From positions 248,001-312,000 of the forward strand of contig NZ_JAQPCG010000004.1 of assembly GCF_028464145.1 (NCBI RefSeq): DNA of 64,000 bases, written 5' to 3'. A program made the translations under genes and the position numbers. Origin of the DNA: Maribacter sp. PR1. Its GTDB lineage: Bacteria; Bacteroidota; Bacteroidia; Flavobacteriales; Flavobacteriaceae. This document shows, one piece after another, positions 29,090-60,868 of the stretch (its first letter is position 1; each line of letters begins with the position of its first letter). The notes beneath the pieces are model-generated. The model was given only the letters and a program-made list of their open reading frames with translations, did not search any database and was not told where the DNA came from.

Positions 29090-29133
29090 CAAATATAGCC
29101 GTAGGATAGCGGAATAAAAATGATGAATGTCAT
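29090..29133 (-). promoter_or_regulatory. Box-controlled promoter for gene at 29065
   Basis: Box ATGATGAATGTCAT (29120-29133), -7 element TATATTTG (29097-29090, perfect), at the island's standard 36-bp offset. Confidence 0.75.
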
Positions 29134-29150
29134 AAGCTTCAAATACCTGT

Positions 29151-29194
29151 ATGACATTCGTCATTTCAAGTAAAAATGCCTCTGTCTAATTTTA
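29151..29194 (+). promoter_or_regulatory. Box-controlled promoter for USP gene
   Basis: Perfect box ATGACATTCGTCAT (29151-29164) with -7 element TAATTTTA (29187-29194, one mismatch). The box ends 54 bp before the ATG, the same distance as for the divergent gene. Confidence 0.8.
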
Positions 29195-29218
29195 GAAAGT
29201 TGTATCTAAAATTTAGCG

Positions 29219-30064
29219 ATGAAAACAATTCTGTATGCTACTGACTATTCTGAAGAGTCCATTGCCGCGTTCCATTGGGCTAACTTAATTAAAAAGAAAT
29301 ATGAGGCGAATTTAATTGTGGTCCACGTTTTTAACGACCCTGTTTCTTTGGCTAGTCCGGTTTCTATGACCTATCTTAAAAAAGAAAAAAGTAAATTTCT
29401 GAAACATGGGACGAAATTGAAAAATTTCTGCGAGAAACATCTTGGACATGAATTAGATAATTCAGATATAAAAATTATGGTTGACGAAAATAATTCTGTT
29501 TCAGATGGTATCTTAGAAAAGGCAATAAAGTTGGATGCCAATTTGATTGTGTTAGGAACGAAAGGATCTAGTAAGGGAATAGAGTTTCTTTTTGGGAGTA
29601 CTACAAAGGCCCTGATAAGAAAATCATCTTGTCCAGTTTTGGCCGTTCCTTCAAAATCAAAAATTTCATCAATAGGAAGAATAGTATATACAACCGATTT
29701 TGAACAAGCCGATATTTTTGCCCTCAATAGGCTAATTGATATTGCCAAAAAATTCAATGCCGAAATAAGGGTAGTCCATATTACCACGAAAAATGAATAT
29801 GCTGGTGAAGAGCAAATGAATTGGTTTCAAGAAATGTTATTAGAAAAAGTGGTGTCTCCCAAACTAGAATTCGAGCTCATTTTTTCTGACGAAATATTGG
29901 AAGAATTAAGTTCATATGTTGAAGATTCTGAAGCAGATCTATTGGTAATGTTAGAACGGAAAGAAGATAGTTTTTATCAAAAATATCTGCAGAAAGATAT
30001 GGTAAAGAGAATGGTAAAAAATATTGAAGTTCCTTTACTCAGCTTTAATGTGAGAGGTCTCTAA
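29219..30064 (+). CDS. Universal stress protein, tandem UspA domains
   Basis: The 281-residue protein has two UspA-like halves. The first (1-145) begins K-T-I-L-Y-A-T-D-Y-S and keeps an ATP-binding-like G-T-K-G-S-S-K-G...G-S-T-T motif; the second (about 150-281) begins R-I-V-Y-T-T-D-F and has lost the glycine motif. Tandem USPs of this kind act in the cytoplasm during energy or redox stress. It is the first plus-strand gene of the box regulon. Confidence 0.9.
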   Translation: MKTILYATDYSEESIAAFHWANLIKKKYEANLIVVHVFNDPVSLASPVSMTYLKKEKSKFLKHGTKLKNFCEKHLGHELDNSDIKIMVDENNSVSDGILEKAIKLDANLIVLGTKGSSKGIEFLFGSTTKALIRKSSCPVLAVPSKSKISSIGRIVYTTDFEQADIFALNRLIDIAKKFNAEIRVVHITTKNEYAGEEQMNWFQEMLLEKVVSPKLEFELIFSDEILEELSSYVEDSEADLLVMLERKEDSFYQKYLQKDMVKRMVKNIEVPLLSFNVRGL

Positions 30065-30209
30065 TACTTTTGACAAATCTTCCCTTACCACTATACTTTC
30101 CGTGGCATTCAGCTTATGACCCCATCTGTGCGCTTTCCAAAATCGTTGTTTTGAGTTACCAAAATGGATAGATAATAAAGGTAGTTGAAACGTTTTTTGA
30201 TATAGGAAT

Positions 30210-30311
30210 ATGTATTTCAAAGACAGAATGGATGCTGGCGTGCAATCAACTAAAAGGTGAAAGCAATATAAGAATGAAGTAGTTTTGGCCATATCGCAAT
30301 GTAACAATTGA
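30210..30311 (+). pseudogene. Phosphoribosyltransferase N-terminal remnant
   Basis: One frame from ATG 30210 reads MYFKDRMDAGVQSTKR, a TGA (30258-30260), then KQYKNEVVLAIS and a second stop. Stress-island phosphoribosyltransferases typically begin with F-K-D-R-x-D-A-G-x-x-L and continue K-Y-K-N-x-x-V-V-L-A-I-P-R-G-G-V. The agreement on both sides of the stop points to a decayed gene of that family, lacking everything after the first strand. It fills part of an otherwise empty 458-bp gap. Confidence 0.6.
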
Positions 30312-30456
30312 ACCTGCTTCTATTTCTAGAATAGCAAAATTTACCTATTGCCTTACTCGATATGAGGGACTTATATTCTTCTTAAGGATACATGTTTATT
30401 TTGATGTTTTTAGTTATATAATTTTAAATAAATATGTATTCCCAGTTTTTTTCTAG

Positions 30457-30500
30457 ATGACCAATGTCATATGTCCTTCCCCTTGTAAAAACTAGTTTTG
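30457..30500 (+). promoter_or_regulatory. Box-controlled promoter for PPOX-like/ppsA unit
   Basis: Perfect box ATGACCAATGTCAT (30457-30470) and perfect -7 element TAGTTTTG (30493-30500). Confidence 0.85.
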
Positions 30501-30522
30501 GAAAAAGAAAAGAATCTAGGCC

Positions 30523-30978
30523 ATGAGAAGAAATTTAGAACCCGCTGAAAACATTGAAATTCTGTCCAGCAACTATATAGGAAACTTAGCATACATATTG
30601 GGAGCAAGTCCCTATATAGTGCCAATGACCTATTATTATGACAAAGTAAGCAATACCATTACAAGTTACTCTTCTGAAGGACACAAGATTGCCGCAATGC
30701 GCAAAAACAATACTATAGCTTTAATGGTAAACCAAATTAAATCAGTAGCGAATTGGCAGACTGTTCAAGTACATGGCACTTTTGAAGAATTAAAAGGTAT
30801 TGATGCAAAACATATGCTTCATGAGTTTTCGGAAGGTGTAAAAGATATTTTGAGTCGCAACGAAGGGACAGACACCGAATACATTAGTGAGTTTTCGGCC
30901 AAGATTGAATCGGAAGGTTCGCCCATTGTATTTCGTATTAAAATCAATGAGATTACAGGTAAGAAAAGGGAATCTTAG
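30523..30978 (+). CDS. Pyridoxamine 5'-phosphate oxidase-like FMN-binding protein
   Basis: The 151-residue split-barrel protein has L-A-Y-I-L-G-A-S-P-Y-I-V-P-M-T-Y-Y-Y and a W-Q-T-V-Q-V-H-G-T-F strand, the pattern of the NimA/PPOX-like flavin family. Such proteins bind FMN or F420-like cofactors and reduce small molecules, or act as nitroreductase-like stress proteins. A homologous fold occurs in hypoxia regulons of other bacteria. It precedes PEP synthase by 72 bp and is probably co-transcribed. Confidence 0.8.
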   Translation: MRRNLEPAENIEILSSNYIGNLAYILGASPYIVPMTYYYDKVSNTITSYSSEGHKIAAMRKNNTIALMVNQIKSVANWQTVQVHGTFEELKGIDAKHMLHEFSEGVKDILSRNEGTDTEYISEFSAKIESEGSPIVFRIKINEITGKKRES

Positions 30979-31050
30979 AAAGGTCCTCCATAAGTTTATG
31001 TGTAAACATTTAGCAAATTACCTCCATTAAATCCAAAAATCCTCTTTGTA

Positions 31051-33447: not shown

Positions 33448-33513
33448 CACCCAATAAAAGTATGGATGTAATTTTTTAGTTTATTTTAGATTCTTTCAAC
33501 AAATATGATACTT

Positions 33514-33532
33514 TAGGTAAAGAATTTACCTA
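33514..33532. repeat. Perfect inverted repeat upstream of pta
   Basis: TAGGTAAA-GAA-TTTACCTA, 8-bp arms and 3-bp centre, about 84 bp before the pta start. It differs from the island palindrome and is not followed by a T run, so an operator for another regulator is likelier than a terminator. Confidence 0.45.
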
Positions 33533-33616
33533 CTAAATTTCAGCTTATGTTTTTGGTAACTAAATGGGATTGCATCCAAGAATCCCATAAATTTGTAAGC
33601 CAAAAACCTTTGTCCT

Positions 33617-35710: not shown

Positions 35711-35718
35711 AAATCCTT

Positions 35719-36912: not shown

Positions 36913-36924
36913 TCATTTATTGTT

Positions 36925-37601: not shown

Positions 37602-37645
37602 CTGACCTAGGTCATTTTGTACAAAAAAATAGCAATATACTTTAG
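37602..37645 (+). promoter_or_regulatory. Box-controlled promoter of putative small RNA
   Basis: Box CTGACCTAGGTCAT (37602-37615, one position off) and -7 element TACTTTAG (37638-37645, one mismatch) at the standard offset. No convincing coding gene starts within 700 bp downstream. Confidence 0.7.
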
Positions 37646-37648: not shown

Positions 37649-37867
37649 TGTATTAAAAGAGAAAAAGTTCATCGGAAAATATAATATACTTAGTATTCGA
37701 TTCGAAAACTAAGCTGTTAGATAAGAAGAGGTTACAAAAATCTATTTTAAACCATTTGTATCTCGAACGGATGTAGCAATGTATACCAGTAGGATTAATG
37801 TAAGTGGAAATTGGGTTGAAGAACATCTTCTAGGAAACCGAGGCACTTCGGTACCTCGGTTTCTTTT
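37649..37867 (+). ncRNA. Putative small RNA under the island regulator
   Basis: Predicted start about 37649 from the promoter position; 3' end at the strong terminator 37834-37867, giving roughly 220 nt. The only ATG ORF (37779-37889, 36 codons) runs through the terminator and is not family-like. A promoter of the regulon followed by a UUCG-capped terminator and no gene is best explained by a regulatory RNA. Confidence 0.55.
37834..37867 (+). terminator. Intrinsic terminator of putative small RNA
   Basis: GAAACCGAGG pairs perfectly with CCTCGGTTTC; the inner CAC/GTA segment is capped by a stable C(TTCG)G tetraloop, and T4 follows. Confidence 0.9.
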
Positions 37868-38021
37868 AATATATGTTATTGGCCTTTAGCTCCGATAGGA
37901 AAACAGGCCATAGTGTAACGGGAGATTCATTTAGTACCAAAATCAACTTTTAAGTCATTTTAGAAAAAAAGCGATTTACGAGCTAGATAGAAAGCATAAA
38001 CAATTTCAAACGTTTCACGGA

Positions 38022-38050
38022 AACAGGAGATTTAGTTCTCCTGTTTTTTT
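38022..38050 (+). terminator. Second intrinsic terminator
   Basis: AACAGGAGA pairs with TCTCCTGTT (9 bp) around TTTAGT, followed by a T run. The 150 bp between the two terminators carries no ORF but a GGCCT...AGGCC hairpin (37881-37909), so a second small RNA or a read-through form of the first is possible. Confidence 0.85.
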
Positions 38051-38271
38051 ATGTGGTATTGGCAATAAAATCGTCAAAATTATCTTCTAAAACTGATTCC
38101 AAAAAACATTCATTATTCTAGTTGAAAAGGTTTTCATACAAAAACCTTTATGTAATGCCCTAACTTTTAAGTGAATCCCCAAAACTCAACAATTTCAAAG
38201 AGGCCAAATCAAGAATGTTTACAACAAATAAACATTAATTAATACCACATAAAGCATCAAACTGACGAAGT

Positions 38272-38315
38272 ATGACCAAAGTCATTTCATGTACATTTTT
38301 TCCGACCTATTTTTA
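38272..38315 (+). promoter_or_regulatory. Box-controlled promoter for YtxH/holin operon
   Basis: Perfect box ATGACCAAAGTCAT (38272-38285) and -7 element TATTTTTA (38308-38315, one mismatch). Confidence 0.8.
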
Positions 38316-38358: not shown

Positions 38359-38688
38359 ATGACAAACGATAGCGGAAATGTTTTACTGGCACTATTAACA
38401 GGGGCCGCCATAGGTGCGGGAATAGGAATTCTTTATGCTCCCGATAAAGGCGTTGAGACACGCCATAAAATTAAAAGGAAAGTTGACGATACCACTCACG
38501 ATCTTGCCGAGCGTATCTCTCACGCAAAAGATGAACTTACAAAATCGGCAAACGAAAAAAAAGATGCTTTCGATAGAAAATTGGATGAAGCCATCTCAAC
38601 CATGAGCTACAAGGCGGATGATATTATAGAAAATCTAGAACGTAAACTTGAAGAGCTTAAAAAGAAGAATGCCCAATTACAAAAATAG
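38359..38688 (+). CDS. YtxH-domain stress protein
   Basis: The 109-residue protein has one N-terminal hydrophobic segment rich in Gly/Ala (L-L-A-L-L-T-G-A-A-I-G-A-G-I-G-I-L-Y-A-P near 8-27), the YtxH signature, then a long charged helix or coiled coil. YtxH-like proteins are general-stress membrane proteins. First gene of a three-gene unit with a holin-like protein and a small helical protein. Confidence 0.88.
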   Translation: MTNDSGNVLLALLTGAAIGAGIGILYAPDKGVETRHKIKRKVDDTTHDLAERISHAKDELTKSANEKKDAFDRKLDEAISTMSYKADDIIENLERKLEELKKKNAQLQK

Positions 38689-38693: not shown

Positions 38694-39044
38694 ATGGCTT
38701 TTGAAGAATTCAAAGAAGACCTCATGGGTGCGGAAGCCGATATGAGGTCCTATGTGGAGACCAGCGACGAGTATCTGAGACTCAGAATATTTAAGGTTCT
38801 TATGCTTTTTGTTACGTCAATCGCTCAATCATTGCTCATCGGTATTGGTTCCGTTTTTGCTTTACTCTTTTTATCGTTCGCCGCCTGCTTGGCAATTTCA
38901 GAATCCTTGGACAGTTATTATAGCGGTTTTATCCTAGTTGGCATTTTTTATGTACTTGTAGGCATTTTGTTCTATGTTTTCAGAAAGAAACTGAACGCTC
39001 CCATCCTAAAGAAATTTTCAAAATATTATTTCGAACAATCATGA
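38694..39044 (+). CDS. Phage-holin-like family membrane protein (DUF1469 type)
   Basis: The 116-residue protein has an acidic N-terminus and two hydrophobic hairpin segments (about 42-68 and 78-100), the layout of the Actinobacterial holin-X/DUF1469 family. Despite the name these are stress-linked membrane proteins, commonly next to YtxH proteins. It starts 5 bp after ytxH and its stop overlaps the next start (ATGA). Confidence 0.82.
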   Translation: MAFEEFKEDLMGAEADMRSYVETSDEYLRLRIFKVLMLFVTSIAQSLLIGIGSVFALLFLSFAACLAISESLDSYYSGFILVGIFYVLVGILFYVFRKKLNAPILKKFSKYYFEQS

Positions 39045-39301: not shown

Positions 39302-40372
39302 TCATCCGGAATCCGCAACATTTTCTAGTTCTTTTTTATTCAAAATAACAATTCTTCTACTGCGATCTGTGGTAATTAAACCTTCATCCTTAAAATCAGA
39401 AAGGGTGCGAATGGCTGTTTCTGTAGCCGTACCTATCATGCCAGCAAAATCTTCACGGGGAATAGACTTCCCATCTTCCGGTTTGTCTTTAATCAATCCC
39501 TTCTCATATAGCTCCAAGAGAGCCTTTGCGGCACGTTTTCGCACCGAGGCAAAAGCCATATCTACCAATTGTGTCTGAACATTAATTAGATTATTTGAAA
39601 TGATATTGATGAATTTTTGGGAGACCATGGGGTTACCATATAAAAGTTTTAGAAAATCTTTTTTTGGTATCGCACCAATTTCGGCATCCTCCAAAACAAC
39701 TGCATTCTCTACATAGGTCCCTGCCGCATGCAGTAGGGACAATTGTCCTATAAAGTCACCAGGGCCATAAATCCCAGTAACCAGTTCTTTACCAGACTCA
39801 GTACCCTTGTAAGTTTTTATAGCTCCGCTTAAGATAAAATAGAGCGATTGTGCATTATCTCCCTCCCAAAAAATTATTTCCTTTTTTTCAAATTGCTTTG
39901 CGGTACGGTTTTTAGAAAGTCCTTCTAAATCAACATATTCTGAAGCTTCCACCAAAAATGATTGGATACCCTCTAGTTTTTTTGAAATTTCCTTTTCTAA
40001 ATTGTCATGCTTTTTCAAACGACAAGAAATCGCATCCAATAATTCTTCCTCTTCGAAAGGTTTGGTCAAATAATCATCGGCACCAAGGTTCATCCCCATC
40101 CGCCTATCCGACCTATCTGTTTTTGCCGTTAGGAAAATAAATGGAGTACTTGCCGTTCCAATATTATTGGCCAAAGACTGCAACACCTCGTATCCATCTA
40201 TTTGTGGCATCATAATATCGCATAGTACCAAGTCCGGCAAAAATTCCATGGCCTTTTCCAATCCAATTTTACCGTTCTCTGCAGTTATTACGTTATAATT
40301 GGCCAAAGCCATTATCTCTGCCGTATTTTCCCTTACAGTTTCATTGTCTTCTATTAATAGTATTGTTTTCAT
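39302..40372 (-). CDS. REC-CRP/FNR fusion transcription factor
   Basis: The 356-residue protein joins a response-regulator receiver (1-120; phosphoacceptor Asp52 in L-C-D-I-M-M-P, D9, K in L-T-K-P) to a cyclic-nucleotide-binding-like domain (about 160-280; Y-F-I-L-S-G-A-I, G-D-F-I-G-Q) and a CRP-type HTH (about 285-350). The recognition helix reads T-A-T-E-T-A-I-R-T-L, keeping the Glu and Arg that contact the TGA core in FNR/CRP but with Ile where FNR has Ser. It has none of the Fe-S cysteines of FNR, so phosphorylation should be its input. No kinase is adjacent. A left-facing promoter of the same regulon lies upstream, suggesting autoregulation. Confidence 0.88.
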   Translation of the reverse strand: MKTILLIEDNETVRENTAEIMALANYNVITAENGKIGLEKAMEFLPDLVLCDIMMPQIDGYEVLQSLANNIGTASTPFIFLTAKTDRSDRRMGMNLGADDYLTKPFEEEELLDAISCRLKKHDNLEKEISKKLEGIQSFLVEASEYVDLEGLSKNRTAKQFEKKEIIFWEGDNAQSLYFILSGAIKTYKGTESGKELVTGIYGPGDFIGQLSLLHAAGTYVENAVVLEDAEIGAIPKKDFLKLLYGNPMVSQKFINIISNNLINVQTQLVDMAFASVRKRAAKALLELYEKGLIKDKPEDGKSIPREDFAGMIGTATETAIRTLSDFKDEGLITTDRSRRIVILNKKELENVADSG

Positions 40373-40561
40373 TTTCTTCTATATTTAAGGGAAACCAAAC
40401 GGTTATAGTACTACTTGTACCGGTTGTATTTAAAAAGTTGATACTTCCTTTCGTTAATTCCCTATACATTTAACCAGTTGAAAACCAAGACCAGTTCTTT
40501 GTAATTTTATTGCGCTACCTAAAAGAAAAAAATAGCGCTGAACTTTCTGTACATTGCTAAA

Positions 40562-40605
40562 TAAATATATTACAGATATTTAGGTCAGGAAATGACATCA
40601 GTCAT
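40562..40605 (-). promoter_or_regulatory. Candidate autoregulatory promoter of REC-CRP gene
   Basis: Perfect box ATGACATCAGTCAT (40592-40605) with left-facing TATATTTA (40569-40562, one mismatch). It would give a leader of about 185 nt. Confidence 0.6.
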
Positions 40606-40627: not shown

Positions 40628-40671
40628 ATGATGATTATCATATTAACCAAGGAGCTTGCTAATTATTTTTG
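40628..40671 (+). promoter_or_regulatory. Box-controlled promoter for patatin gene
   Basis: Perfect palindrome ATGATGATTATCAT (40628-40641) with perfect -7 TATTTTTG (40664-40671). It shows that ATGAT...ATCAT half-sites also count as boxes. Confidence 0.8.
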
Positions 40672-40696: not shown

Positions 40697-41491
40697 ATGA
40701 ATATAGGTTTGGTACTTTCAGGTGGGGGCATACGGGGTGTAGCACATATTGGTGCAATCAAGGCGCTTGAGGAATTTGGTATTCGTCCATCCCATATTGC
40801 TGGTACCAGTGCAGGTGCCATTGTAGGCGCACTTTACGCTGGCGGTTGCAATTGGGAGGAAATATTGGATTTTTTTAAAACAACTCAAATTTTCAGTATT
40901 AAAAAATATGCAAGAAGCAAACCAGGGTTTGTGGATACTGAGAAATTCTATGACCATTTAAAGTCCTACTTACCTGAAGACAATTTTGCATCATTGGAGA
41001 TTCCCTTATATGTCACCGCCACTAATCTTTTGGACGGTACCCTAAAAGTCTTTAACCATGGAGAACTTATTAAACCAGTTTTGGCATCGGCCGCCGTTCC
41101 AGGGTTATTTGCGCCAGTTCTATTTAAGAAAGGTTATTATGTGGATGGGGGTACATTAAACAATTTTCCTGTGGATCTCATTAAAAAATATTGTGATCAA
41201 ATTGTGGGTGTCTATGTAAACCCCTTTGAAAAAATGAAGAAGACTGATCTTAAGCATGCCCACAATGTATTGGAACGTGCCTATCATATAATGGTAGCTA
41301 ACGAAACCGTTCTTAAGTTTGAAGAATGTGATGTTTTGATTAGGCCAGAGCACATGGCAGACTTTAGTATGTTTTCCCTAAAGAATATGGATACCCTTTT
41401 TGAATTGGGATACGAATCGGCCAAGGAAGCCCTTATAAATAGCGATATTCATAAAAGTCTTGAAAAGATGGACAGTTCTAAAACGAACTAG
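40697..41491 (+). CDS. Patatin-like phospholipase
   Basis: The 264-residue RssA-type protein has the oxyanion G-G-G-I-R-G near 10-15, nucleophile G-T-S-A-G (Ser about 39) and catalytic D-G-G near 155. It should hydrolyse acyl lipids, cytoplasmic or membrane-associated. Under control of a perfect box, convergent with hsp20. Lipid remodelling in stress is a reasonable role. Confidence 0.9.
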   Translation: MNIGLVLSGGGIRGVAHIGAIKALEEFGIRPSHIAGTSAGAIVGALYAGGCNWEEILDFFKTTQIFSIKKYARSKPGFVDTEKFYDHLKSYLPEDNFASLEIPLYVTATNLLDGTLKVFNHGELIKPVLASAAVPGLFAPVLFKKGYYVDGGTLNNFPVDLIKKYCDQIVGVYVNPFEKMKKTDLKHAHNVLERAYHIMVANETVLKFEECDVLIRPEHMADFSMFSLKNMDTLFELGYESAKEALINSDIHKSLEKMDSSKTN

Positions 41492-41717: not shown

Positions 41718-42182
41718 TTATGAAATCTGTACTTTTTTAGGCGGTAGTTTTTTTGCTTCTTCCTTTTTGGCTAGGTTAAAACTTAAGATACCATCGTTGT
41801 ATTTGGCTTTGATAGCTTCTTGTTTAACACTTTCGGGCAATTGTAAAGAGCGCTGGAAAGCGTTGTAACTAAATTCTTTCCGTGTATAATTGTCCTCTTT
41901 CTCCTCATCTGAAACGGACTTTTCAGCAGAGATATTTAAACAACCGTCTTCAATGGTTACTTCAAAATCTTTTTTGGCAAACCCGGGTGCAGCCAATTCA
42001 ATTTCGAACGTATCATCGGTTTCCTTTATGTTCAATGCAGGTTCTGATCTTTTACCGTTCCAGAATTGATCCGGTATCATATCCCTCACCCATCTACGGT
42101 TATCAAAGAAATCGTCCATATCAAAAAAATCTTGGGTAATAAGGTTTCCAAAGGGTCTTCTTTTAAATTTTACGAGTGACAT
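41718..42182 (-). CDS. Hsp20 small heat-shock protein
   Basis: The 154-residue alpha-crystallin-type chaperone has the core P-A-L-N-I-K-E-T-D-D-T-F-E-I-E-L-A-A-P-G-F and G-I-L-S-F-N-L-A-K-K. It binds unfolding proteins. It is transcribed from a box shared with the divergent P-type ATPase. Confidence 0.93.
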   Translation of the reverse strand: MSLVKFKRRPFGNLITQDFFDMDDFFDNRRWVRDMIPDQFWNGKRSEPALNIKETDDTFEIELAAPGFAKKDFEVTIEDGCLNISAEKSVSDEEKEDNYTRKEFSYNAFQRSLQLPESVKQEAIKAKYNDGILSFNLAKKEEAKKLPPKKVQIS

Positions 42183-42221: not shown

Positions 42222-42295
42222 CGAAAATACGCTCGACAATCACTTATTGAAATGATGTAGGTCAGTCTCACCTATTTTTTTTGACTTTATTTTTG
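42222..42295. promoter_or_regulatory. Bidirectional box-controlled promoter, hsp20 and P-type ATPase
   Basis: Box ATGATGTAGGTCAG (42252-42265). Rightward -7 TATTTTTG (42288-42295, perfect); leftward TATTTTCG (42229-42222, one mismatch). Both at the standard offset. Confidence 0.75.
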
Positions 42296-42313
42296 AGAAA
42301 ACAAAAAAGCACT

Positions 42314-45494: not shown

Positions 45495-46583
45495 TTACTT
45501 TAAAGGTACAGATTTGAATAGGATATACTCTCCAATATTGGTCCTATCAATGACACCTGCCAACGTACCCTCTTCCATAACAGGGAAAAAACTTTTCTTT
45601 TCTTTTGCGAACAGTTCCATCACTTTTAATATTTCCATTGATGCATCCACGGTCTTAAAATCTTTATCCATTACATCCTTCACCACAAGCAATGGTGTGC
45701 TTGCATGTTTTAGGACATGTTTTTGGGTAACAATGCCAACAATTTCATCCTTCTCTATAACAACAAAATCCTTTTCGGTTCCCGCAAGGGTAATGTCCAT
45801 CACGTCCTTTATTGTATGGATAGGACTTAACAACGTGATATTCGTCAAGGTCGCTTCCCTGACCATATGACCTTCCAATAGGGAATTTTGTTTTACCATT
45901 TGGTTCTCGCCATAAGCTCCAAAAAAGATAAAAAAGGCAATCAGAATTAAAAATGGATTGAATAAAAGTCCGAGAATGAAAAATAGAATCGCTAGGCCCT
46001 GACCAATAGAAGAGGCTATTCCAGTAGCCTCGACACGACCTAATTTAAAGGACAACAAGGCTCTTAATACCCTACCACCATCCATAGGAAAGGCAGGAAT
46101 TAGATTAAAAACCACCAACATTATATTGGCTATGAAAAGATAGAACAAAAAGTTTTGGAACGTGGGTTGGTACAAAACTTCCTCCAATACGATGGCATCA
46201 AAGTCAAAATAGCTTTTTACAGGAACTACCAAAACAAGTAGGATGGCAATAACCACATTAACGGCAGGTCCGGCAAGGGCAACCAATAGTTCCTGTCTAG
46301 GTTTTTCTGGCATCTTTTCCAACATGGCTACTCCACCAATAGGTAAAAGTGTTATTTTTTGGGTGTTGATATTGAATCTTTTTGCGGTTAGCGCATGACC
46401 TAATTCGTGAAGTACTACACATATGAACAAGACCAAAATTAGGGCTTCATTAAGTAGTATTCTATCCAAATTAGACCCTCGCTGTATCTCCAGGAAAGCG
46501 ACCCAAAACAGCAATAGGGTAAACGTCCAATGTACTTCTATCTTAATCCCAGAAATACTCCCCAATTTTAAAACACCCTTCAT
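45495..46583 (-). CDS. Site-2 protease family (M50) with CBS pair
   Basis: The 362-residue membrane metalloprotease has H-E-L-G-H near 62-66, N-L-I-P-A-F-P-M-D-G-G-R-V second motif near 160-172, six membrane segments, and two C-terminal CBS domains (about 235-355). CBS pairs bind adenylates, so the enzyme may read energy charge. The same architecture (SpoIVFB-like; Rip3 in mycobacteria) occurs in hypoxia regulons. Its box is shared with pfkB. Confidence 0.92.
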   Translation of the reverse strand: MKGVLKLGSISGIKIEVHWTFTLLLFWVAFLEIQRGSNLDRILLNEALILVLFICVVLHELGHALTAKRFNINTQKITLLPIGGVAMLEKMPEKPRQELLVALAGPAVNVVIAILLVLVVPVKSYFDFDAIVLEEVLYQPTFQNFLFYLFIANIMLVVFNLIPAFPMDGGRVLRALLSFKLGRVEATGIASSIGQGLAILFFILGLLFNPFLILIAFFIFFGAYGENQMVKQNSLLEGHMVREATLTNITLLSPIHTIKDVMDITLAGTEKDFVVIEKDEIVGIVTQKHVLKHASTPLLVVKDVMDKDFKTVDASMEILKVMELFAKEKKSFFPVMEEGTLAGVIDRTNIGEYILFKSVPLK

Positions 46584-46600: not shown

Positions 46601-46674
46601 CGAAAGTATTCTAGAGGTACTTTTTCAACAATGACATTGGTCATATGAGACCACTTGCCATACTATTATATTTG
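46601..46674. promoter_or_regulatory. Bidirectional box-controlled promoter, protease-upp and pfkB
   Basis: Perfect box ATGACATTGGTCAT (46631-46644). Rightward -7 TATATTTG (46667-46674, perfect); leftward TACTTTCG (46608-46601, one mismatch). Confidence 0.82.
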
Positions 46675-50807: not shown

Positions 50808-50851
50808 ATGATATAAATCATTAGTTAAAAACCATACAATCAGTAACTTGA
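50808..50851 (+). promoter_or_regulatory. Box with weak -7 upstream of DUF302 gene
   Basis: Perfect palindrome ATGATATAAATCAT (50808-50821); the -7 at the standard offset, TAACTTGA (50844-50851), has two mismatches. Confidence 0.5.
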
Positions 50852-50926: not shown

Positions 50927-51325
50927 ATGGACTATTATTTTTCTACCCAATTAAAAAACGTGACGTTTGAAGAAGCAATCTCAAAAACAAAAGAGGCCTT
51001 GAAAAAAGAAGGTTTTGGTGTTTTGACTGAAATAGATATGAAAAACACCTTGAAGCAAAAACTGGATGTTGATATTAAAGACTATAAAATTCTAGGGGCC
51101 TGCAATCCATCCATGGCCTATCAGGCACTTCAGGTAGAAAACAAAATTGGTACCATGCTACCTTGCAATGTAATCGTTCAGGAGAAAGAGGAAGGAAACA
51201 TTGAAATCGCAGCGGTAGATCCAGCCGCATCCATGCAAGCTATAAAAAACAATGCGCTAATCGAAATAGCTGAAAACGTAAGGACAAAACTTAAACAGGT
51301 AATTCAAAATCTGAATAATGTCTAA
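50927..51325 (+). CDS. DUF302 family protein
   Basis: The 132-residue protein is a DUF302 member: T-F-E-E-A-I-S-K-T-K-E-A-L-K-K-E-G-F-G-V-L-T-E-I-D, then G-A-C-N-P-S-M-A-Y-Q-A-L and M-L-P-C-N-V-I-V. The family is widespread in bacteria that face changes in redox and often accompanies stress genes; its biochemical role is unclear. Confidence 0.9.
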   Translation: MDYYFSTQLKNVTFEEAISKTKEALKKEGFGVLTEIDMKNTLKQKLDVDIKDYKILGACNPSMAYQALQVENKIGTMLPCNVIVQEKEEGNIEIAAVDPAASMQAIKNNALIEIAENVRTKLKQVIQNLNNV

Positions 51326-52836: not shown

Positions 52837-52860
52837 GATTTTATATATTCATAATTAGTT

Positions 52861-53622: not shown

Positions 53623-53672
53623 AATCTGTTAATCTTTATAAACCGTTTTTATTATTTTCAGAAGGTTATATT

Positions 53673-54311
53673 TTAATTTTTTAAAGCTGTTTTCCGAATT
53701 TCCCAACCTTGATCCTTAATATGTACCCCTACAAGGCCCTCCGCTAAATATTTTGCTCCGATTGAAGGTACTTGATACCGTTTTTTGGTCATTTGGATGT
53801 TCTGTCGCCGTTCTAAAAATTCGTCTATTTCACCGGAGGTATCCAGTAACACATCAAAGAATTTAAACTCATATATATTAAGTTTGAATTCGTTTTGCCC
53901 CTTTAAAGTCTTATCGAACAAAACTCCTGTAGTATAACCATTCTTAAACGGATACACATTTAAAAATTGTGGTTCTATTACCGTGTTTCCTTTTGTGTCC
54001 ATAAAACCATATAAAGGGACTCCATCCTCCACGTTCTTAGTAATTAAACACCTTCCCTCTTGGAAAACAGGATAACGCACTCCAGAAATATCGGAACGGG
54101 ATGTATCCGCATTCTCGTTCCAATAAACATCATCTCTATAATCGATGACCAAAGCCCCTTTTGCATTGATAAAACCCCATTGATTTCCTTGGCGAACCCC
54201 AGCCAATCCCTCACTAAAAGGGGCTATTTCATCAATCCCCTTAAGCCGTTGCCCTACCATTGTTGAGGGTAAAAAACATATAAAAGCAAATAATAACAGT
54301 ATATTTTTCAT
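53673..54311 (-). CDS. Secreted WG-repeat protein
   Basis: The 212-residue protein has a signal peptide (M-K-N-I-L-L-L-F-A-F-I-C-F-L-P) and WG beta-repeats: G-L-A-G-V-R-Q-G-N-Q-W-G-F-I-N-A-K-G and Y-G-F-M-D-T-K-G-N. The position of the -7 element (54340-54333) excludes the longer ORF start at 54335, fixing Met at 54311. Under the same box as the hibernation factor; role in the envelope unknown. Confidence 0.8.
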   Translation of the reverse strand: MKNILLLFAFICFLPSTMVGQRLKGIDEIAPFSEGLAGVRQGNQWGFINAKGALVIDYRDDVYWNENADTSRSDISGVRYPVFQEGRCLITKNVEDGVPLYGFMDTKGNTVIEPQFLNVYPFKNGYTTGVLFDKTLKGQNEFKLNIYEFKFFDVLLDTSGEIDEFLERRQNIQMTKKRYQVPSIGAKYLAEGLVGVHIKDQGWEIRKTALKN

Positions 54312-54332
54312 AACTCGAGTTTTTAATTTATT

Positions 54333-54406
54333 CAAAAATAAAGTAGTGCGGTATAGCCTGAAATGATAAAAATCATTTTATAAGAAGAATAGCGAACTTA
54401 CTTTTG
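54333..54406. promoter_or_regulatory. Bidirectional box-controlled promoter, WG protein and HPF
   Basis: Perfect palindrome ATGATAAAAATCAT (54363-54376). Perfect -7 elements on both sides: TACTTTTG (54399-54406) and TATTTTTG (54340-54333, minus). Confidence 0.85.
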
Positions 54407-54430
54407 AACTGAAATCAAAACGTACTTTTT

Positions 54431-54742: not shown

Positions 54743-54743
54743 T

Positions 54744-55574: not shown

Positions 55575-55613
55575 AAACACGATACAATTATACACGAACT
55601 GAAACCATTTGAT

Positions 55614-56015
55614 CTATGTCAGCAACAGGTCTAACTTTGCCAATATTATTAATTCTGATTTGTTCTTTCCTGAAAAAGAATTAGCGATAGCTCTTGCGGT
55701 TTTTTTTGCCATAGACTTTATTTCCTCCGTAAAGGCGTGTGGGTGTTCTTTATAAAATTCCTTGAATTCGTCAAAACACTCATCGCTGCTTTTTGTATAC
55801 TCCATGAGTACATCGAAAACAATTTCTATTTGGTTTGCGGAGTCGGTGCCATATCTATCCGTAAAGTCATCTAAACACAGCCAATCTTCCTTTACAATTT
55901 CTTTTAATTTATCCCATTCCTTAACGTGAACCTTACCATCGCTTATCGCCACGGCGTAAAACAATTTGCCTAAACTTTCATAGAGCATGTTCATAGTTCT
56001 AGCTGTATTTTTCAT
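55614..56015 (-). CDS. TerB-like helical protein
   Basis: The 133-residue protein has F-Y-A-V-A-I-S-D-G-K-V-H-V-K-E-W-D-K-L, the acidic D-G-x-V-x-x-x-E motif of TerB/TelA-type metal-binding helical domains. Function in the stress island unknown. The ATG at 56015 is downstream of the promoter's -7 (56045-56038), whereas the GTG at 56036 is not, so 56015 is the start. Confidence 0.65.
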   Translation of the reverse strand: MKNTARTMNMLYESLGKLFYAVAISDGKVHVKEWDKLKEIVKEDWLCLDDFTDRYGTDSANQIEIVFDVLMEYTKSSDECFDEFKEFYKEHPHAFTEEIKSMAKKTARAIANSFSGKNKSELIILAKLDLLLT

Positions 56016-56037
56016 CCTTTCCCTCCTTTTAAACACT

Positions 56038-56081
56038 TAAAAGTATCATTTGCTGCATACTTGGCATATGACAAAAATCAG
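56038..56081 (-). promoter_or_regulatory. Box-controlled promoter for TerB-like gene
   Basis: Box ATGACAAAAATCAG (56068-56081), left-facing -7 TACTTTTA (56045-56038, one mismatch). Confidence 0.6.
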
Positions 56082-56092
56082 TCTATAATCTT

Positions 56093-56100
56093 TATATTTG
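56093..56100 (+). promoter_or_regulatory. -7 element directly before kinase gene
   Basis: TATATTTG is a perfect TAnnTTTG but ends only 4 bp before the kinase ATG, so a transcript from it would start at or next to the start codon. It sits 25 bp from the box start, not the usual 36. Confidence 0.4.
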
Positions 56101-56104
56101 ATTT

Positions 56105-57619
56105 ATGCATGTTTTCAAGAAAGACAGTAATATTTTTAATCTACTTTCAGAAGGGGTTTCCGAGGGTATTATCGTCATAAATGAAGAGCAGACAATTGTA
56201 GCCAGCAATACTTCAACCGAGGAAATGTTTGGATACGGAAAGGATGAACTCATTGGGAAACCATTGGAAATCCTAATACCGAACAGATACCACAACCATC
56301 ACGACACCCATGTCAAAAATTTTATTGACAAGGGTGAAAAACGCCAAATGGGACATGGAAGGGATTTACACGGTATTCGTAAAAATGGTCACGAGTTTCC
56401 CGTTGAGGCAGGTCTCAACCCCTTTGAACTCTATGGAGCTACCTACATCATGGCGCTGATTATTGATATTACGGACCGTAAAAGAAGAGAGAAAGAACTG
56501 AGTCACTGGGCACGTATCTTTGATGAATCCCTGAATGAAATTTATGTATTTGATGTTGATAGTCTCGGTTTTATTAATGTAAATAAGGAAGCCCAACGAA
56601 ATTTAGGATATAACATGCAGGAATTGGTGGAGATGACACCTTTAGACATAAAACCTGAACTCAACCTTTCAGAATTTAGGGCTTTGGCACTGCCACTCTT
56701 GGAAGATGAGATGTGCAAGGTAGATTTTGAAACCAAGCACCTTAGGAAGGATGGTACTTTATATCCCGTAGAAGTCCACCTTCAGCTTTCCTTAATGGAA
56801 GAGAAAAAGGTTTTTATTGCCATTATTTTGGACATAACCGAACGTAAAAATTATACGGAAAAACTGGAAAAAAAGGTAGAAGAGCGAACTAAACAGTTAA
56901 CAGAAGCCTTGGCCAAAGAAAAAGAACTTAATGAATTAAAAACACGATTCTTATCGCTGGTATCCCATGAGTTCAAAACCCCTTTGAGCAGTATTTTAAC
57001 CTCTATTACGCTGTTGGGTAAATATACCGAGACAGAACAACAAGAAAAGCGTGATAAACACGTGAACACTATTAAAAATAAAGTGAAATATCTAGATACA
57101 ATTCTAAATGATTTTCTTTCTGTAGAACGTTTGGAATCCGGCAAGGTAAATTATAAAATCGAAATCTTTTCATTGAGCAAAATTGTTAATGAAGTAATCT
57201 ACAACGCAAATATGTTACTCAAATCTGGCCAAAAAATCCAGTATCCCGATAACATTGATGAAATTATTCTCCAATTCGATGAAAAAACACTGGAATTGGT
57301 ATTGTCCAATTTGATACACAATGCCATTAAATATTCTCCGGAGGATTCCATTATCGAATTAAAGGTAGAAATAGAAGAAGAAGAATTTGTGGTTAAAGTA
57401 ATCGATGAGGGAATTGGTATTCCTAATGAAGAACAAAAGCACATATTTGACAGGTATTTTAGAGCAGAAAATGCCCTAGTTACCCAGGGTACAGGGATTG
57501 GACTGAATATTGCCAAACAACATCTTGAAAACCTGGGGGCAAGCATTAAATTCTCTAGTAGGGAAAATATGGGTTCCACCTTTATTTTACATATCCCCAA
57601 AACACTTAACACTATTTAG
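56105..57619 (+). CDS. FixL-like PAS sensor histidine kinase
   Basis: The 504-residue cytoplasmic kinase has two PAS domains (about 10-125 and 130-250), a coiled linker, HisKA with S-H-E-F-K-T-P-L (phospho-His288) and HATPase_c with N-A-I-K-Y-S, D-E-G-I-G-I, G-T-G-I-G-L. In the first PAS, H-H-D-T-H-V and G-H-G-R-D put His66 and Arg86 20 residues apart, the same spacing as heme-ligand His200 and Arg220 in Bradyrhizobium FixL, with the shared R-x-D/N-G-x-x-F-P context. A heme oxygen sensor is thus possible but not shown. It is 3 bp from its regulator. Confidence 0.9.
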   Translation: MHVFKKDSNIFNLLSEGVSEGIIVINEEQTIVASNTSTEEMFGYGKDELIGKPLEILIPNRYHNHHDTHVKNFIDKGEKRQMGHGRDLHGIRKNGHEFPVEAGLNPFELYGATYIMALIIDITDRKRREKELSHWARIFDESLNEIYVFDVDSLGFINVNKEAQRNLGYNMQELVEMTPLDIKPELNLSEFRALALPLLEDEMCKVDFETKHLRKDGTLYPVEVHLQLSLMEEKKVFIAIILDITERKNYTEKLEKKVEERTKQLTEALAKEKELNELKTRFLSLVSHEFKTPLSSILTSITLLGKYTETEQQEKRDKHVNTIKNKVKYLDTILNDFLSVERLESGKVNYKIEIFSLSKIVNEVIYNANMLLKSGQKIQYPDNIDEIILQFDEKTLELVLSNLIHNAIKYSPEDSIIELKVEIEEEEFVVKVIDEGIGIPNEEQKHIFDRYFRAENALVTQGTGIGLNIAKQHLENLGASIKFSSRENMGSTFILHIPKTLNTI

Positions 57620-57622
57620 AAA

Positions 57623-58675
57623 ATGAAACAAATTTTATTAATCGAGGATGATAGGGCCCTTCGCGAAAATACAGAAGAGCTTTTGGAGCTTTCCGGCTAT
57701 TCGGTGCTAACCGCTCCAAATGGAAAAATAGGGATCCAATCCGCAAAAGAAAACCTACCCGATATTATTGTTTGTGACATTATGATGCCCTTGATAGATG
57801 GTTACGGAGTTTTGGAGGAATTGTCGTCCGATGAAAAAACAAAACACATTCCATTTATTTTCCTTTCCGCCAAAACAGAACATAAGGAAATAAGAAGGGG
57901 AATGGACTTGGGTGCGGACGATTACTTAACCAAACCCTTTGAGGAAGAAGACCTAATTAGTGCCGTAGAGAGTAGATTGGCAAAGTCGCAACTTTTGAAC
58001 CGAATGCTTGATATAAAATCCATCGAACAAGATGTTTCTAATGATGAGATGCGTACGTTGCACGAGCTTAAGAACTTCTTTGATGATAACGGTGAAGTGA
58101 TGGATTTTGTTCAGGGTGATATTATTTACAAAGAACGGTCGCGCTCCAATAAAATTTATCTTATTCTAAAAGGTCTGGTAAAGGGACATTGCATGGATGC
58201 GGACGGTAAAGAACTCACAACATCATTATATAGGGCAGATGATTTCTTGGGCTTTACCTCTTTTTTAAACAATATTCCATACCAAGAATCCGCAACTGCT
58301 CTGGAACCAGTGCAGCTTGCGGGAATTTCCAAGGAAAACCTCAAAGAGATTTTAGGAAAAAATAAGGATATTTCTTTGGAACTGATGGAGCTGTTGACCG
58401 AGAACATTTCCCTCATTAAAGCACAATTACTTCAAATGGCCTATAGTTCCGTTCGTAAGAAAACGGCGCAAACTTTGCTACAGTTCGCCGAAATTATGAA
58501 AACAACAACCGAAGAGCCTATTAAAATTTCGAGGAACGATCTCGCCAGTGTGGCAGGAATTGCAACCGAAAGCCTTATACGTACCCTTTCCGGTTTTAAA
58601 AAGGAGGGGCTAATTGCCATTGAAGGCCGGAATATTCGAATCATGGAACTGGAGGCGTTGCAATATGTCAATTAG
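57623..58675 (+). CDS. REC-CRP/FNR fusion transcription factor (kinase partner)
   Basis: The 350-residue paralog of the regulator at 39302 has the same plan: receiver with Asp52 (I-V-C-D-I-M-M-P), CRP-like sensor domain (about 155-275) and HTH with recognition helix I-A-T-E-S-L-I-R-T-L. The Glu/Ile/Arg pattern equals that of the paralog, so both could bind the same boxes. It also lacks Fe-S cysteines. Operon with the PAS kinase makes this the direct phosphotransfer partner; the orphan paralog may also be served. Confidence 0.9.
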   Translation: MKQILLIEDDRALRENTEELLELSGYSVLTAPNGKIGIQSAKENLPDIIVCDIMMPLIDGYGVLEELSSDEKTKHIPFIFLSAKTEHKEIRRGMDLGADDYLTKPFEEEDLISAVESRLAKSQLLNRMLDIKSIEQDVSNDEMRTLHELKNFFDDNGEVMDFVQGDIIYKERSRSNKIYLILKGLVKGHCMDADGKELTTSLYRADDFLGFTSFLNNIPYQESATALEPVQLAGISKENLKEILGKNKDISLELMELLTENISLIKAQLLQMAYSSVRKKTAQTLLQFAEIMKTTTEEPIKISRNDLASVAGIATESLIRTLSGFKKEGLIAIEGRNIRIMELEALQYVN

Positions 58676-58708
58676 GTTTGAATTTAGCATATTAAAATGC
58701 TGAACAAC

Positions 58709-58752
58709 CTGACAAATATCATGTAGCAGGTTTGTTCACTGGTTTATTTTTG
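58709..58752 (+). promoter_or_regulatory. Box-controlled promoter for USP gene
   Basis: Box CTGACAAATATCAT (58709-58722), perfect -7 TATTTTTG (58745-58752). The -7 element overlaps the GTG at 58752, so that codon cannot be the USP start. Confidence 0.78.
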
Positions 58753-58769
58753 TGTATCAAACCTTTTTA

Positions 58770-59606
58770 ATGAAGTACATTTTAATACCCACAGACTTTT
58801 CCGAGAATGCTTGGAACGCTTTGGAATATGCGGTCCATTTCTTTGAAAGTGAAATCTGTAGTTTTTATATCTTACATGTTGGCGAATTGAGCAATTCAGA
58901 GGTGAATAGGAATTCATTTATATTTCCCCAAAGAGTCATAAGTCCTGCTATAAAAGAGAAATTGAAATCCCTTTTTGAAAGAATCGATAGATTATCAAAA
59001 AATAACCAGCATCATTTTATAGCACTTCAGGAGTATGGCAACTTTGTCGATATTGTACGTAAAACGGTAGATTCCAAAAAAATAAATCTTATTGTAATGG
59101 GCACCAAGGGGGCCTCGGGTTTAAGAACGTCCATTGTTGGAAGTAATACCGGGGACGTTATTACAAAAGTGTTTTGTAATGTATTGGTGATACCAGAAAA
59201 TGCTTCATTTATGATTCCCAAGAGGATTGCCTTTCCTACCGATTATAATCTATACTATACCTACCCCATTTTAAAAACTATTGCAGAACTTTTACGCATT
59301 ACAAAGGCTAATTTTCAGGTCTTTAATGTGGCTCAGCCCAATGTTCTATTCACCCGTTTACAAGAAAAAAATAAAGACTACTTGCAAGATTATTTGGACG
59401 AAACATTTCCAAACACACATAGTTTTCTTAGTATCAAAAATCAGGATATTAAGTCCGCTATTCTAAAATTTGTTGATGATAACCAGATTGATATGTTGAC
59501 AATGGTAGCCAAGAACCTGAATTTCCTTCAGCAACTTCTATTCGATACTACCATCGAAAGACTTAGCTTTCACACCACCATACCTCTGTTGGTATTGCAT
59601 GAATAG
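58770..59606 (+). CDS. Universal stress protein, tandem type
   Basis: The 278-residue protein begins M-K-Y-I-L-I-P-T-D-F-S-E-N-A-W-N-A-L and keeps V-M-G-T-K-G-A-S-G...G-S-N-T-G-D-V-I in the first half; the second half ends in a divergent L-P-L-V-L-H-type strand without the motif. It is one of three close paralogs (with 60887 and 61830). Confidence 0.92.
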   Translation: MKYILIPTDFSENAWNALEYAVHFFESEICSFYILHVGELSNSEVNRNSFIFPQRVISPAIKEKLKSLFERIDRLSKNNQHHFIALQEYGNFVDIVRKTVDSKKINLIVMGTKGASGLRTSIVGSNTGDVITKVFCNVLVIPENASFMIPKRIAFPTDYNLYYTYPILKTIAELLRITKANFQVFNVAQPNVLFTRLQEKNKDYLQDYLDETFPNTHSFLSIKNQDIKSAILKFVDDNQIDMLTMVAKNLNFLQQLLFDTTIERLSFHTTIPLLVLHE

Positions 59607-59704
59607 CTACCGCTATTTTCATTTGCCAATAACCACATTCTTAGGATTTTTTTACTTCTTTTTTAAAAAATAGAAATTGAAAGAATTTGTATATACTATA
59701 GATT

Positions 59705-59722
59705 TTAACAGACGGCTGTTAA
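59705..59722. repeat. Perfect inverted repeat before ROK gene
   Basis: TTAACAG-ACGG-CTGTTAA (7-4-7), 70 bp upstream of the island box for the ROK gene. Not followed by a T run; possible operator. Confidence 0.35.
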
Positions 59723-59792
59723 TTGAAAATAAAACCTAACAAGGAAATCATCATTCAATTTGTTTTACTAGTATTGGATTACAACTGCAGAA

Positions 59793-59836
59793 ATGATATA
59801 TATCAGTTGTAACGTGCTTTAAGTTATTTTTATTTG
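59793..59836 (+). promoter_or_regulatory. Box-controlled promoter for ROK kinase
   Basis: Box ATGATATATATCAG (59793-59806) and -7 TTTATTTG (59829-59836, one mismatch). Confidence 0.7.
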
Positions 59837-59856
59837 TAGAATAACACGTTGGCCAG

Positions 59857-60828
59857 ATGGTAAAGAAAGTCGTATTAGGCATTGATATTGGTGGCACCTA
59901 TACCAAAATAGGCCTTGTCACCAAAAAGGGTGGAATTTTAGATAAGGTTGTTTTTAAAACGGAAGCGCAAAAACCGTTTTCGAATTTCATGGGCAAATTA
60001 AAGGTGGAGGTGGAAACGTTAGTTTTGAGATCAGCCTCGGATATTCAGATACTTCATATCGGCGTTGGCGCCCCTAATGCAAACCCAAATACCGGTAATA
60101 TCGAGAATCCCCCAAATTTGAAATGGGGATTGGCCACTCCAATAAAAAAAATTATGGAGCAAGTTTTTGAACTTCCCGTTGTTTTGGCGAACGATGCGAA
60201 TGCAGCGGCCTTGGGCGAAATGCTTTACGGTGCCGCTCAGGGGATGAAAAATTTCGTAGCACTGACCTTAGGGACGGGATTGGGAAGCGGAATCATTGTG
60301 AATGGACAATTATTGATTGGCGAACATGGTGCTGCCGGGGAACTTGGCCATGTAAACGTAGATAGACAGGGACGCAATTGTAACTGTGGGCTGCAAGGTT
60401 GTTTGGAAACCTATGCATCCGTCACTGGTATAAAACGTACTGTTTTTGAATTGATGGCAACGATGCGCGAAGCATCCCCACTACGTAGTTTAAGTTTTGA
60501 TGAGATGACCGGAACAGCCATTTCCAACGCTGCTATAAATGGCGATGCCATCGCCTTGAAAGCTTTTGAGATGACCGGTGAGATTTTAGGAAGCAAAATG
60601 GCAGATACCGTTGCCCATTTAGATCCAGAGGCATTTATACTTTCTGGAGGATTGAGCAAGGCTGGGAAAATTCTTTTAAACCCCATAAAAAACGGAATGG
60701 AACACCACCTATTCAATGTCTATAAAGACAAGGTTAAGGTGCTATTATCAACCGCTACCAGCTCTGACGCTGTTCTCGGCCCTGCAGCATTGGCTTGGTT
60801 GGAATTCAAAAATACCAAAACCGCATGA
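59857..60828 (+). CDS. ROK-family glucokinase-like sugar kinase
   Basis: The 323-residue kinase has the ATP motif L-G-I-D-I-G-G-T-Y-T-K near 7-17, N-D-A-N-A-A-A-L-G-E near 111-120, E-H-G-A-A-G-E-L-G-H-V and the zinc motif C-N-C-G-L-Q-G-C-L-E of ROK kinases. Glucokinase is likeliest. It separates two USP paralogs and ends within the next USP promoter: its TGA stop lies inside the box. Confidence 0.9.
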   Translation: MVKKVVLGIDIGGTYTKIGLVTKKGGILDKVVFKTEAQKPFSNFMGKLKVEVETLVLRSASDIQILHIGVGAPNANPNTGNIENPPNLKWGLATPIKKIMEQVFELPVVLANDANAAALGEMLYGAAQGMKNFVALTLGTGLGSGIIVNGQLLIGEHGAAGELGHVNVDRQGRNCNCGLQGCLETYASVTGIKRTVFELMATMREASPLRSLSFDEMTGTAISNAAINGDAIALKAFEMTGEILGSKMADTVAHLDPEAFILSGGLSKAGKILLNPIKNGMEHHLFNVYKDKVKVLLSTATSSDAVLGPAALAWLEFKNTKTA

Positions 60829-60868
60829 CCTTTGTCATTTGACGACATTCAGAACACAAATATCTTTA
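60825..60868 (+). promoter_or_regulatory. Box-controlled promoter for second USP paralog
   Basis: Perfect box ATGACCTTTGTCAT (60825-60838) overlapping the ROK stop codon, -7 TATCTTTA (60861-60868, one mismatch). Confidence 0.8.

Follow-up and report, generated by a model that had tools for sequence, protein, structure and literature searches.

The 64,000-nucleotide stretch of the Maribacter sp. PR1 genome analysed here (contig NZ_JAQPCG010000004.1, positions 248,001 to 312,000; hereafter the window) contains a gene island whose promoters carry palindromic boxes of the form ATGAY-N4-RTCAT, set at a fixed distance from the promoter element TAnnTTTG (the -7 element). We predict that these boxes mark a Crp/Fnr-type regulon and serve it as class II activator sites. 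The island encodes REC-CRP2 and its paralogue REC-CRP1, which appear to be response regulators with a Crp-type DNA-binding output. Pfam scans identified five universal stress proteins (USPs; 29219, 54744, 58752, ~60887 and 61830), together with PNPOx-like, PpsA-like, Pta, AckA, YtxH, HSP20, cation P-type ATPase, UPRT, M50-CBS, PfkB, two-CBS-domain, AstE-like, DUF302, HPF/S30AE, ROK and patatin products, the two REC-CRPs and a PAS-PAS kinase. An earlier note on this DNA had listed 15 boxes by eye, with none before 29 kb. All 15 are present, 10 fitting ATGAY-N4-RTCAT perfectly and 5 deviating at one terminal base; however, the cluster begins before 29 kb, since perfect, correctly spaced boxes were also found at 22271 and 23115. 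The boxes and the genes that define the locus are as follows.

22271..22284, minus strand: box ATGATAGAGGTCAT, -7 TACTTTTA with 1 mismatch, 5' of the YkuD gene 21235-22182; absent from the earlier list
23115..23128, plus strand: box ATGATATTGGTCAT, -7 TATATTTG perfect, 5' of mlaE-type genes 23156-25746; absent from the earlier list
28616..29065, minus strand: PhaP-like protein (Pfam score under the curated cut-off), target of box 29120
29120..29133, minus strand: box, -7 TATATTTG perfect, 5' of the PhaP-like gene
29151..29164, plus strand: box, -7 TAATTTTA, 5' of USP 29219-30064
30457..30470, plus strand: box, -7 TAGTTTTG perfect, 5' of PNPOx-like 30523 and PpsA-like 31051, then Pta 33617 and AckA 35719 (presumably one operon)
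37602..37615, plus strand: box CTGACCTAGGTCAT, -7 TACTTTAG, 5' of a noncoding RNA
37650..37867, plus strand: structured RNA of ~218 nt, 5' end predicted, intrinsic terminator at its end
38272..38285, plus strand: box, -7 TATTTTTA, 5' of YtxH 38359-38688 and of 38694-39044
39302..40372, minus strand: REC-CRP1, 356 aa, with receiver, cNMP-binding domain and Crp helix-turn-helix
40592..40605, minus strand: box, -7 TATATTTA, 5' of REC-CRP1
40628..40641, plus strand: box, -7 TATTTTTG perfect, 5' of patatin 40697-41491
42252..42265, both strands: bidirectional box; left, HSP20 41718-42182 (TATTTTCG); right, cation P-type ATPase 42281-44809 (TATTTTTG)
46631..46644, both strands: bidirectional box; left, M50-CBS 45495-46583 and UPRT (TACTTTCG); right, PfkB 46703, two-CBS-domain protein 47694 and AstE-like 49552 (TATATTTG)
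50808..50821, plus strand: box, weak -7 TAACTTGA with 2 mismatches, 5' of DUF302 50927-51325
54363..54376, both strands: bidirectional box, both -7 elements perfect; left, WG-repeat protein 53673-54335; right, HPF/S30AE 54431 and USP 54744
56068..56081, minus strand: box, -7 TACTTTTA on the minus strand, 5' of 55614-56036
56105..57619, plus strand: PAS-PAS-HisKA-HATPase kinase, PAS1 FixL-like
57623..58675, plus strand: REC-CRP2, 350 aa, immediately 3' of the kinase
58709..58722, plus strand: box, -7 TATTTTTG perfect, 5' of USP 58752
59793..59806, plus strand: box, -7 TTTATTTG with 1 mismatch, 5' of ROK kinase 59857-60828
60825..60838, plus strand: box, -7 TATCTTTA, 5' of USP ~60887-61726 and USP 61830-62669

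A protein gene lies on the correct side of every box in the earlier list except 37602, and boxes 42252, 46631 and 54363 are two-sided. We refer to genomes by G numbers, G000 being the genome under study, and to its contigs by C numbers; the island lies on C18. The YkuD orthologue in G011 is also box-led, and a box precedes the mlaE-type genes likewise in G011, G056 and G108. On the plus strand, box 56068 stands just 5' of the kinase start, and here TATATTTG falls at roughly +25, not at +36 (56068-56111). The kinase start of G011 has a similar arrangement (+25), as do, more loosely, those of G108 and G075, and negative autoregulation of the kinase via this box is possible.

Box spacing in the window, the genome and relatives

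Scoring TAnnTTTG at each offset from +14 to +79, for both strand-ends of each of the 15 boxes, revealed a single preferred distance. At +36, the element occurs with at most one mismatch in 17 of 30 strand-ends, 8 of them perfect, which reproduces the 8 perfect and 9 one-mismatch promoters counted earlier; the single promoter then called weak is probably 50808 (+), with two mismatches. The 65 remaining offsets each have only 0-3 such ends. With a background rate in the window of 1.06% per position at this stringency, the binomial P for 17/30 is 2.8e-26, and it is still 1.2e-21 if a background of 2% is assumed.

A whole-genome search for box plus promoter, allowing at most one mismatch over the combined 44-base pattern, returned 29 sites (15 forward and 14 reverse), and the reversed pattern, used as control, returned 0 and 0. 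Fifteen of the 29 fall within C18:270241-308868, a 39-kb segment making up about 0.8% of the genome, and we therefore regard the island as real. Motif density is far from equal inside and outside it, the island being strongly enriched, although the regulon is not "locally complete", as had been suggested, since 14 of the 29 sites lie beyond these 39 kb. Four are in C18:221906-231747, two elsewhere on C18 and eight on other contigs, at least one of which (C1:511899, within an opposing long open reading frame) may be a chance occurrence. Among others, outlying sites accompany USP genes at C18:221906-222026 and a ferritin-like (Dps-type) gene plus a USP on C19, and a bidirectional box lies between an Rrf2 regulator gene and a gene judged by eye to be lipoprotein-like (C22:224417-224490); sites with two mismatches accompany a second S30AE gene on C17 and a CBS protein on C21. 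Upstream of the window, C18:221906-225883 holds a second USP cluster of four genes with two divergent boxes. A further cluster, G000:C1:541752-548457, combines the gene for an FNR-like protein with those for a USP, a CcoI-type metal P-type ATPase, a cbb3 protein fusing COX1 and FixO, and a radical SAM protein that we take to be HemN-type; its boxes are of the CTGAY type, and three of the five have two mismatches over the pattern.

The same spacing recurs in other genomes. Regions fetched from five relatives that lack an FNR-like protein (G056, G108, G075, G069 and G041) have the -7 element at +36 in 46 of 94 strand-ends of perfect boxes, compared with at most 3 at any other offset; in the first three, orthologues of island genes carry the boxes, which in G069 and G041 lie around REC-CRP2 and USPs. 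Elsewhere, +36 hits number 14/24 in G011 and 11/24 in other fetched loci of G000. Among named loci around REC-CRP2, taken as the best 80 of 563 relatives, the closest are from Maribacter, Pricia and Arenibacter (79-82% identity). These 80 loci have the -7 element at +36 in 83 of 189 strand-ends (other offsets, at most 8), and with a relaxed box a +36 promoter is present in 75 of the 80. In 61 of the 65 named loci with full flanks, such a promoter lies within 200 bp downstream of REC-CRP2, the place equivalent to box 58709.

TAnnTTTG at -7 is the element of the Bacteroidota primary sigma factor, and RNA-seq in Flavobacterium johnsoniae confirmed the -7 but could identify no -33 motif (PMC7366714). 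Across 84 promoters we found no conserved G of a -33 TTTG. If the -7 element begins some 12 bp ahead of transcription, the box would be centred near -41.5 relative to the predicted start sites, which is the class II position, and the boxes have the palindromic TGA core of class II Crp/Fnr sites. The recurrence of the spacing in the five relatives and the 80 loci, along with the lack of a conserved -33 TTTG, makes a fixed, class II-like placement of an activator, as first proposed from the window alone, a well-supported prediction.

A structured RNA behind box 37602

No long open reading frame follows box 37602. Instead, 37650-37867 folds better than 200 of 200 shuffles (z -3.6) and ends in a terminator. 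A search of 27000-64000 against Rfam 15 gave no match up to E 0.5. By BLAST, the RNA is found in 11 of 35 further genomes of the genus, ten times nearly full-length and once (G424) over 139 bases, with extra copies in several; the three other-family matches span 34-49 bases. A box with the -7 element at +36 precedes the RNA in 16 of 16 rows (12 from the genus, including one second copy, plus G011, two from G056 and G108) and in 4 of 5 further rows. RNAalifold predicted 52 pairs from 11 sequences, 12 of them with a compensatory change, compared with 6.3 in shuffles, only 1 of 500 of which reached as many. Covariation was 0.212 against 0.149 in shuffles (0 of 500 as high), with slid versions at most 0.084; further pair types in the alignment are unexceptional (112 of 500 shuffles).

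A covariance model built from same-genus rows only matches in 7 of 120 family genomes, all of them REC-CRP-positive (7/54 versus 0/66, P 0.003). In the five hits outside this genome with upstream DNA available (G011, G056, G108, G032 and G103), a box with the -7 element at +36 stands 113-120 bp before the model start; G032 and G103 were new to the comparison. A sixth outside hit, G037, begins at a contig end. The lack of a match in most family genomes and in 24 of 35 genomes of the genus indicates that the RNA is either restricted or fast-diverging. Tandem copies occur in relatives, such as two box-led units at G056:C1:1828587-1829116. Farther downstream in the window, the model matches once more, weakly, at 37986-38052 (20 bits, E 0.046), a stretch that has a terminator-like hairpin to itself, and G108 has a similar second match of 27.8 bits.

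Candidate regulators and their signal

REC-CRP2 has the domain order REC-cNMP_binding-HTH_Crp_2, which is neither FixJ-type REC-LuxR nor NarL/LuxR-type, and all 12 REC-CRP2 sequences compared have the receiver residues D9, D10, D52 and K104. The protein sequences of the REC-CRPs have a 4Fe-4S cysteine cluster neither before nor within the Crp module. The first PAS domain of the kinase at 56105 finds FixL (1d06, E 8.8e-16) as its best PDB match, followed by the O2 sensor DosP; the heme-ligand His corresponds to residue 66 and the FixL Arg to residue 86. In an alignment of 31 of 40 kinase rows (omitting six duplicates and three REC-CRP1-linked kinases), the heme His is kept in 28 rows and the Arg in 24; of the three His exceptions, two rows are apparently misaligned or truncated and one has Ala. 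Kinases linked to REC-CRP2 have one or two PAS domains (eight relatives' kinases scanned). In G011, G056 and G108, a separate multi-PAS kinase precedes REC-CRP1; no such kinase occupies that place here (40373-40592), leaving REC-CRP1 without a neighbouring kinase. Oxygen is the presumed signal.

The genome also encodes an FNR-like protein (C1:542744-543433), with a shorter second relative at G000:C22:249065-249526. Its CxxC and inner Cys align with FNR; the third N-terminal Cys has no counterpart, so the four cluster cysteines are not all present and its signal is uncertain. A recognition helix of the type E-x-x-I-R is common to REC-CRP1, REC-CRP2 and the FNR-like protein, and solved FNR (5cvr/5e44) has E-T-I-S-R at the aligned place.

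We cross-tabulated both regulators in 120 Flavobacteriaceae genomes, using our own cut-offs: a full-length match for REC-CRP (55 matches minus G002, a receiver-only match, giving 54 genomes) and at least 140 bits for the FNR-like protein (reached by 71 of 97 found at E 1e-20). The median number of sites, uncorrected for phylogeny, is highest with both regulators (25; n=27), followed by REC-CRP only (13, range 6-37; n=27), FNR-like only (11, range 2-28; n=44) and neither (1, range 0-21; n=22). Mann-Whitney tests against the last group, ignoring kinship, gave P=2e-8 for REC-only and P=1e-8 for FNR-only. Either regulator therefore seems enough to keep the box. In five REC-only genomes inspected out of the 27, boxes are around REC-CRP genes or on island orthologues; in five FNR-only genomes (G059, G107, G017, G044 and G072), their neighbours are genes of the CcoI, CcoN and HemN types, one USP gene, one HPF gene and unnamed reading frames.

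Because the inspected genomes lacking the FNR-like protein keep boxes on island genes, we consider the REC-CRPs the most likely readers of the island, with cross-reading by the FNR-like protein possible; for the near-identical box at cbb3 oxidase genes, we propose FNR-like proteins as the readers. Comparative genomics supports the assignment to the REC-CRPs implied in the earlier note. The box itself is not specific to them, since, where REC-CRP is lacking, the FNR-like protein goes along with a box that is almost identical and spaced alike. Promoters extracted by rule from the fetched loci have similar box cores in REC-only and FNR-only genomes and differ only in flank and N4. A T follows the box in 13 of 19 window promoters, 48 of 84 REC-only promoters and 3 of 24 FNR-only promoters (window versus FNR-only, P=3e-4; window versus REC-only, P=0.44). 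Between REC-only and FNR-only promoters, P is 1.3e-4 for the flank and 0.006 for N4, which suggests a partial separation of REC-CRP and FNR-like sites.

The most probable alternative overlaps with our own proposal and does not exclude it: both regulator classes may bind all boxes and compete or add, such that the island would integrate two signals. We regard this as somewhat less likely than not. The high site count of genomes with both regulators, the shared E-x-x-I-R helix and the similar box cores speak for it, whereas the separate flank and N4 preferences and the missing third cysteine, which leaves the second signal uncertain, speak against it. It is unlikely that the standalone FNR-like protein activates all boxes, with the REC-CRPs acting elsewhere or only as modulators, even though box and spacing are the same near the CcoI-, CcoN- and HemN-type, USP and HPF genes of inspected FNR-like-only genomes, and the cbb3 cluster of G000 that holds the FNR-like gene carries boxes of its own. 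We dropped it as the main explanation because the 27 genomes without an FNR-like protein at the cut-off keep their sites; moreover, boxes crowd around REC-CRP2 and the window promoters show the REC-type flank. Finally, a repressor or an unrelated palindrome-reading protein is very improbable: box 56068 overlies the likely kinase promoter (TATATTTG at ~+25) in a position that fits repression, but at the other sites the box is followed by a -7 element and no conserved -33 is present, as activation would predict, and the TGA core with an E-x-x-x-R helix is the established code of the Crp/Fnr family.

Proposed mechanism and known systems

We consider it probable that an O2-sensing kinase acts through a REC-CRP class II activator on a dormancy and fermentation island, analogous to DosR and built from unrelated parts. 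When oxygen falls, the heme-PAS kinase would phosphorylate REC-CRP2. Bound to ATGAY-N4-RTCAT, with the box centre about 41 bp upstream of the start, REC-CRP2 would then bring in the housekeeping polymerase of Bacteroidota at promoters equipped with a -7 but no conserved -33. The survival island would thereby be switched on, including the five USPs (with more elsewhere in the genome), the hibernation factor, HSP20, PpsA, Pta-AckA, PfkB, the M50-CBS protease, the P-type ATPase and the structured small RNA. The FNR-like protein would recognise an almost identical, equally positioned box before cbb3 genes, placing respiration and dormancy under one promoter code.

Several observations weigh against this proposal. 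The cross-tabulation ignores phylogeny, and many genomes with neither regulator are small, yet G039, G073, G086, G087 and G010 (3.0-3.5 Mb, 99% complete) hold 0-3 sites. G048 has neither regulator at the cut-off yet 21 sites (82% complete, 6% contaminated), and G051 has 7. Several REC-only genomes carry distant Crp/Fnr proteins of 117-130 bits (for example, G075, G036, G108 and G113), and since G000 itself has an FNR-like protein, its island may answer to one class of regulator or to both. G+C content (0.37 versus 0.33) may affect the N4 and flank comparisons. REC-CRP occurs in 43 of 296 genomes of a phylum sample, and those outside the family have few sites (113 in total in 26 of 27 such genomes, the count omitting G377; control 13; two genomes with zero), so that enrichment under the box rule beyond Flavobacteriaceae appears weak. 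As to the sensor, the FixL Arg is Ile in G011, the nearest kinase relative inspected, and a simple-pattern scan of the three REC-CRP1-linked kinases (G011, G056 and G108) found no FixL-like site. A search of the kinase/REC-CRP2 operon found no +36 promoter, and the DinB, FMN_bind and SDR genes of the island have none.

The earlier note knew of no such regulon in Flavobacteriia, and among the open-licence papers listed by our searches none described it. Among the closest parallels are DosR/DevR of Mycobacterium and OsdRK of Streptomyces, two-component hypoxia responses with USPs and a heat-shock protein, as predicted here. On the DosR side, the likeness would extend to heme sensing, PfkB, a Rip3-like M50-CBS protease, hibernation and a cation ATPase, and the island is similarly USP-rich with HSP20, PfkB and a hibernation factor. 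The output domain of DosR is of the NarL/LuxR type, whereas here it is Crp-type, with a PAS and not a GAF sensor, a different box, a different promoter class and another phylum. The Streptomyces system has a PPDK gene and the majority of the USP genes close to osdRK (PMC5069765).

The FixL-FixJ-FixK cascade (PMC9104464) provides a second parallel. It too combines a FixL-like heme-PAS kinase with a Crp/Fnr-type final activator; here receiver and Crp module are joined in a single protein, so that no FixJ-to-FixK transcription step is left. FixK-type boxes are TTGAT-N4-ATCAA, unlike the ATGAY-N4-RTCAT found here. FNR/ANR regulons share the TGA-core palindrome, the Crp/Fnr helix and low-oxygen genes such as cbb3, whereas the REC-CRPs have a receiver domain, lack the N-terminal cysteine cluster and have a helix of the form E-x-x-I-R, not E-x-x-S-R. 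The lxa locus of Burkholderia cenocepacia contains six USPs with metabolic, stress and transport genes, is induced by low oxygen and serves anoxic persistence; it belongs to a different phylum, and the passages of PMC9104464 that describe it name no REC-CRP or shared box. In Myxococcus xanthus, the heme-dependent kinase of NmpRSTU controls an oxygen utilisation regulon with cbb3 and hemN, through NtrC-like regulators in a phosphorelay (PMC11841059, a text in which "universal stress" occurs 12 times, reference titles included). The island would work like DosR/OsdR, lxa and NmpRSTU but belongs to none of them, since the output domain, the sensor domain or the box differs.

As a whole, we would put at about even the chance that Flavobacteriaceae have a DosR-like dormancy system run by a receiver-Crp fusion (FixL-FixJ-FixK in two proteins), with a promoter code shared with an FNR-like protein and an undescribed structured-RNA family as a counterpart of FnrS. 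If so, a large bacterial family gains a predicted programme for the loss of oxygen, with a promoter rule sharp enough for target prediction in its genomes, and its activator-dependent promoters without a conserved -33 offer material for studying class II activation on the unusual sigma factor of the phylum. The linked RNA would, if true, be a low-oxygen regulatory RNA in Bacteroidota, where to our knowledge few are known; FnrS is an example of a low-oxygen small RNA. The island would also be a case of dormancy islands that arose in separate phyla under different regulators.

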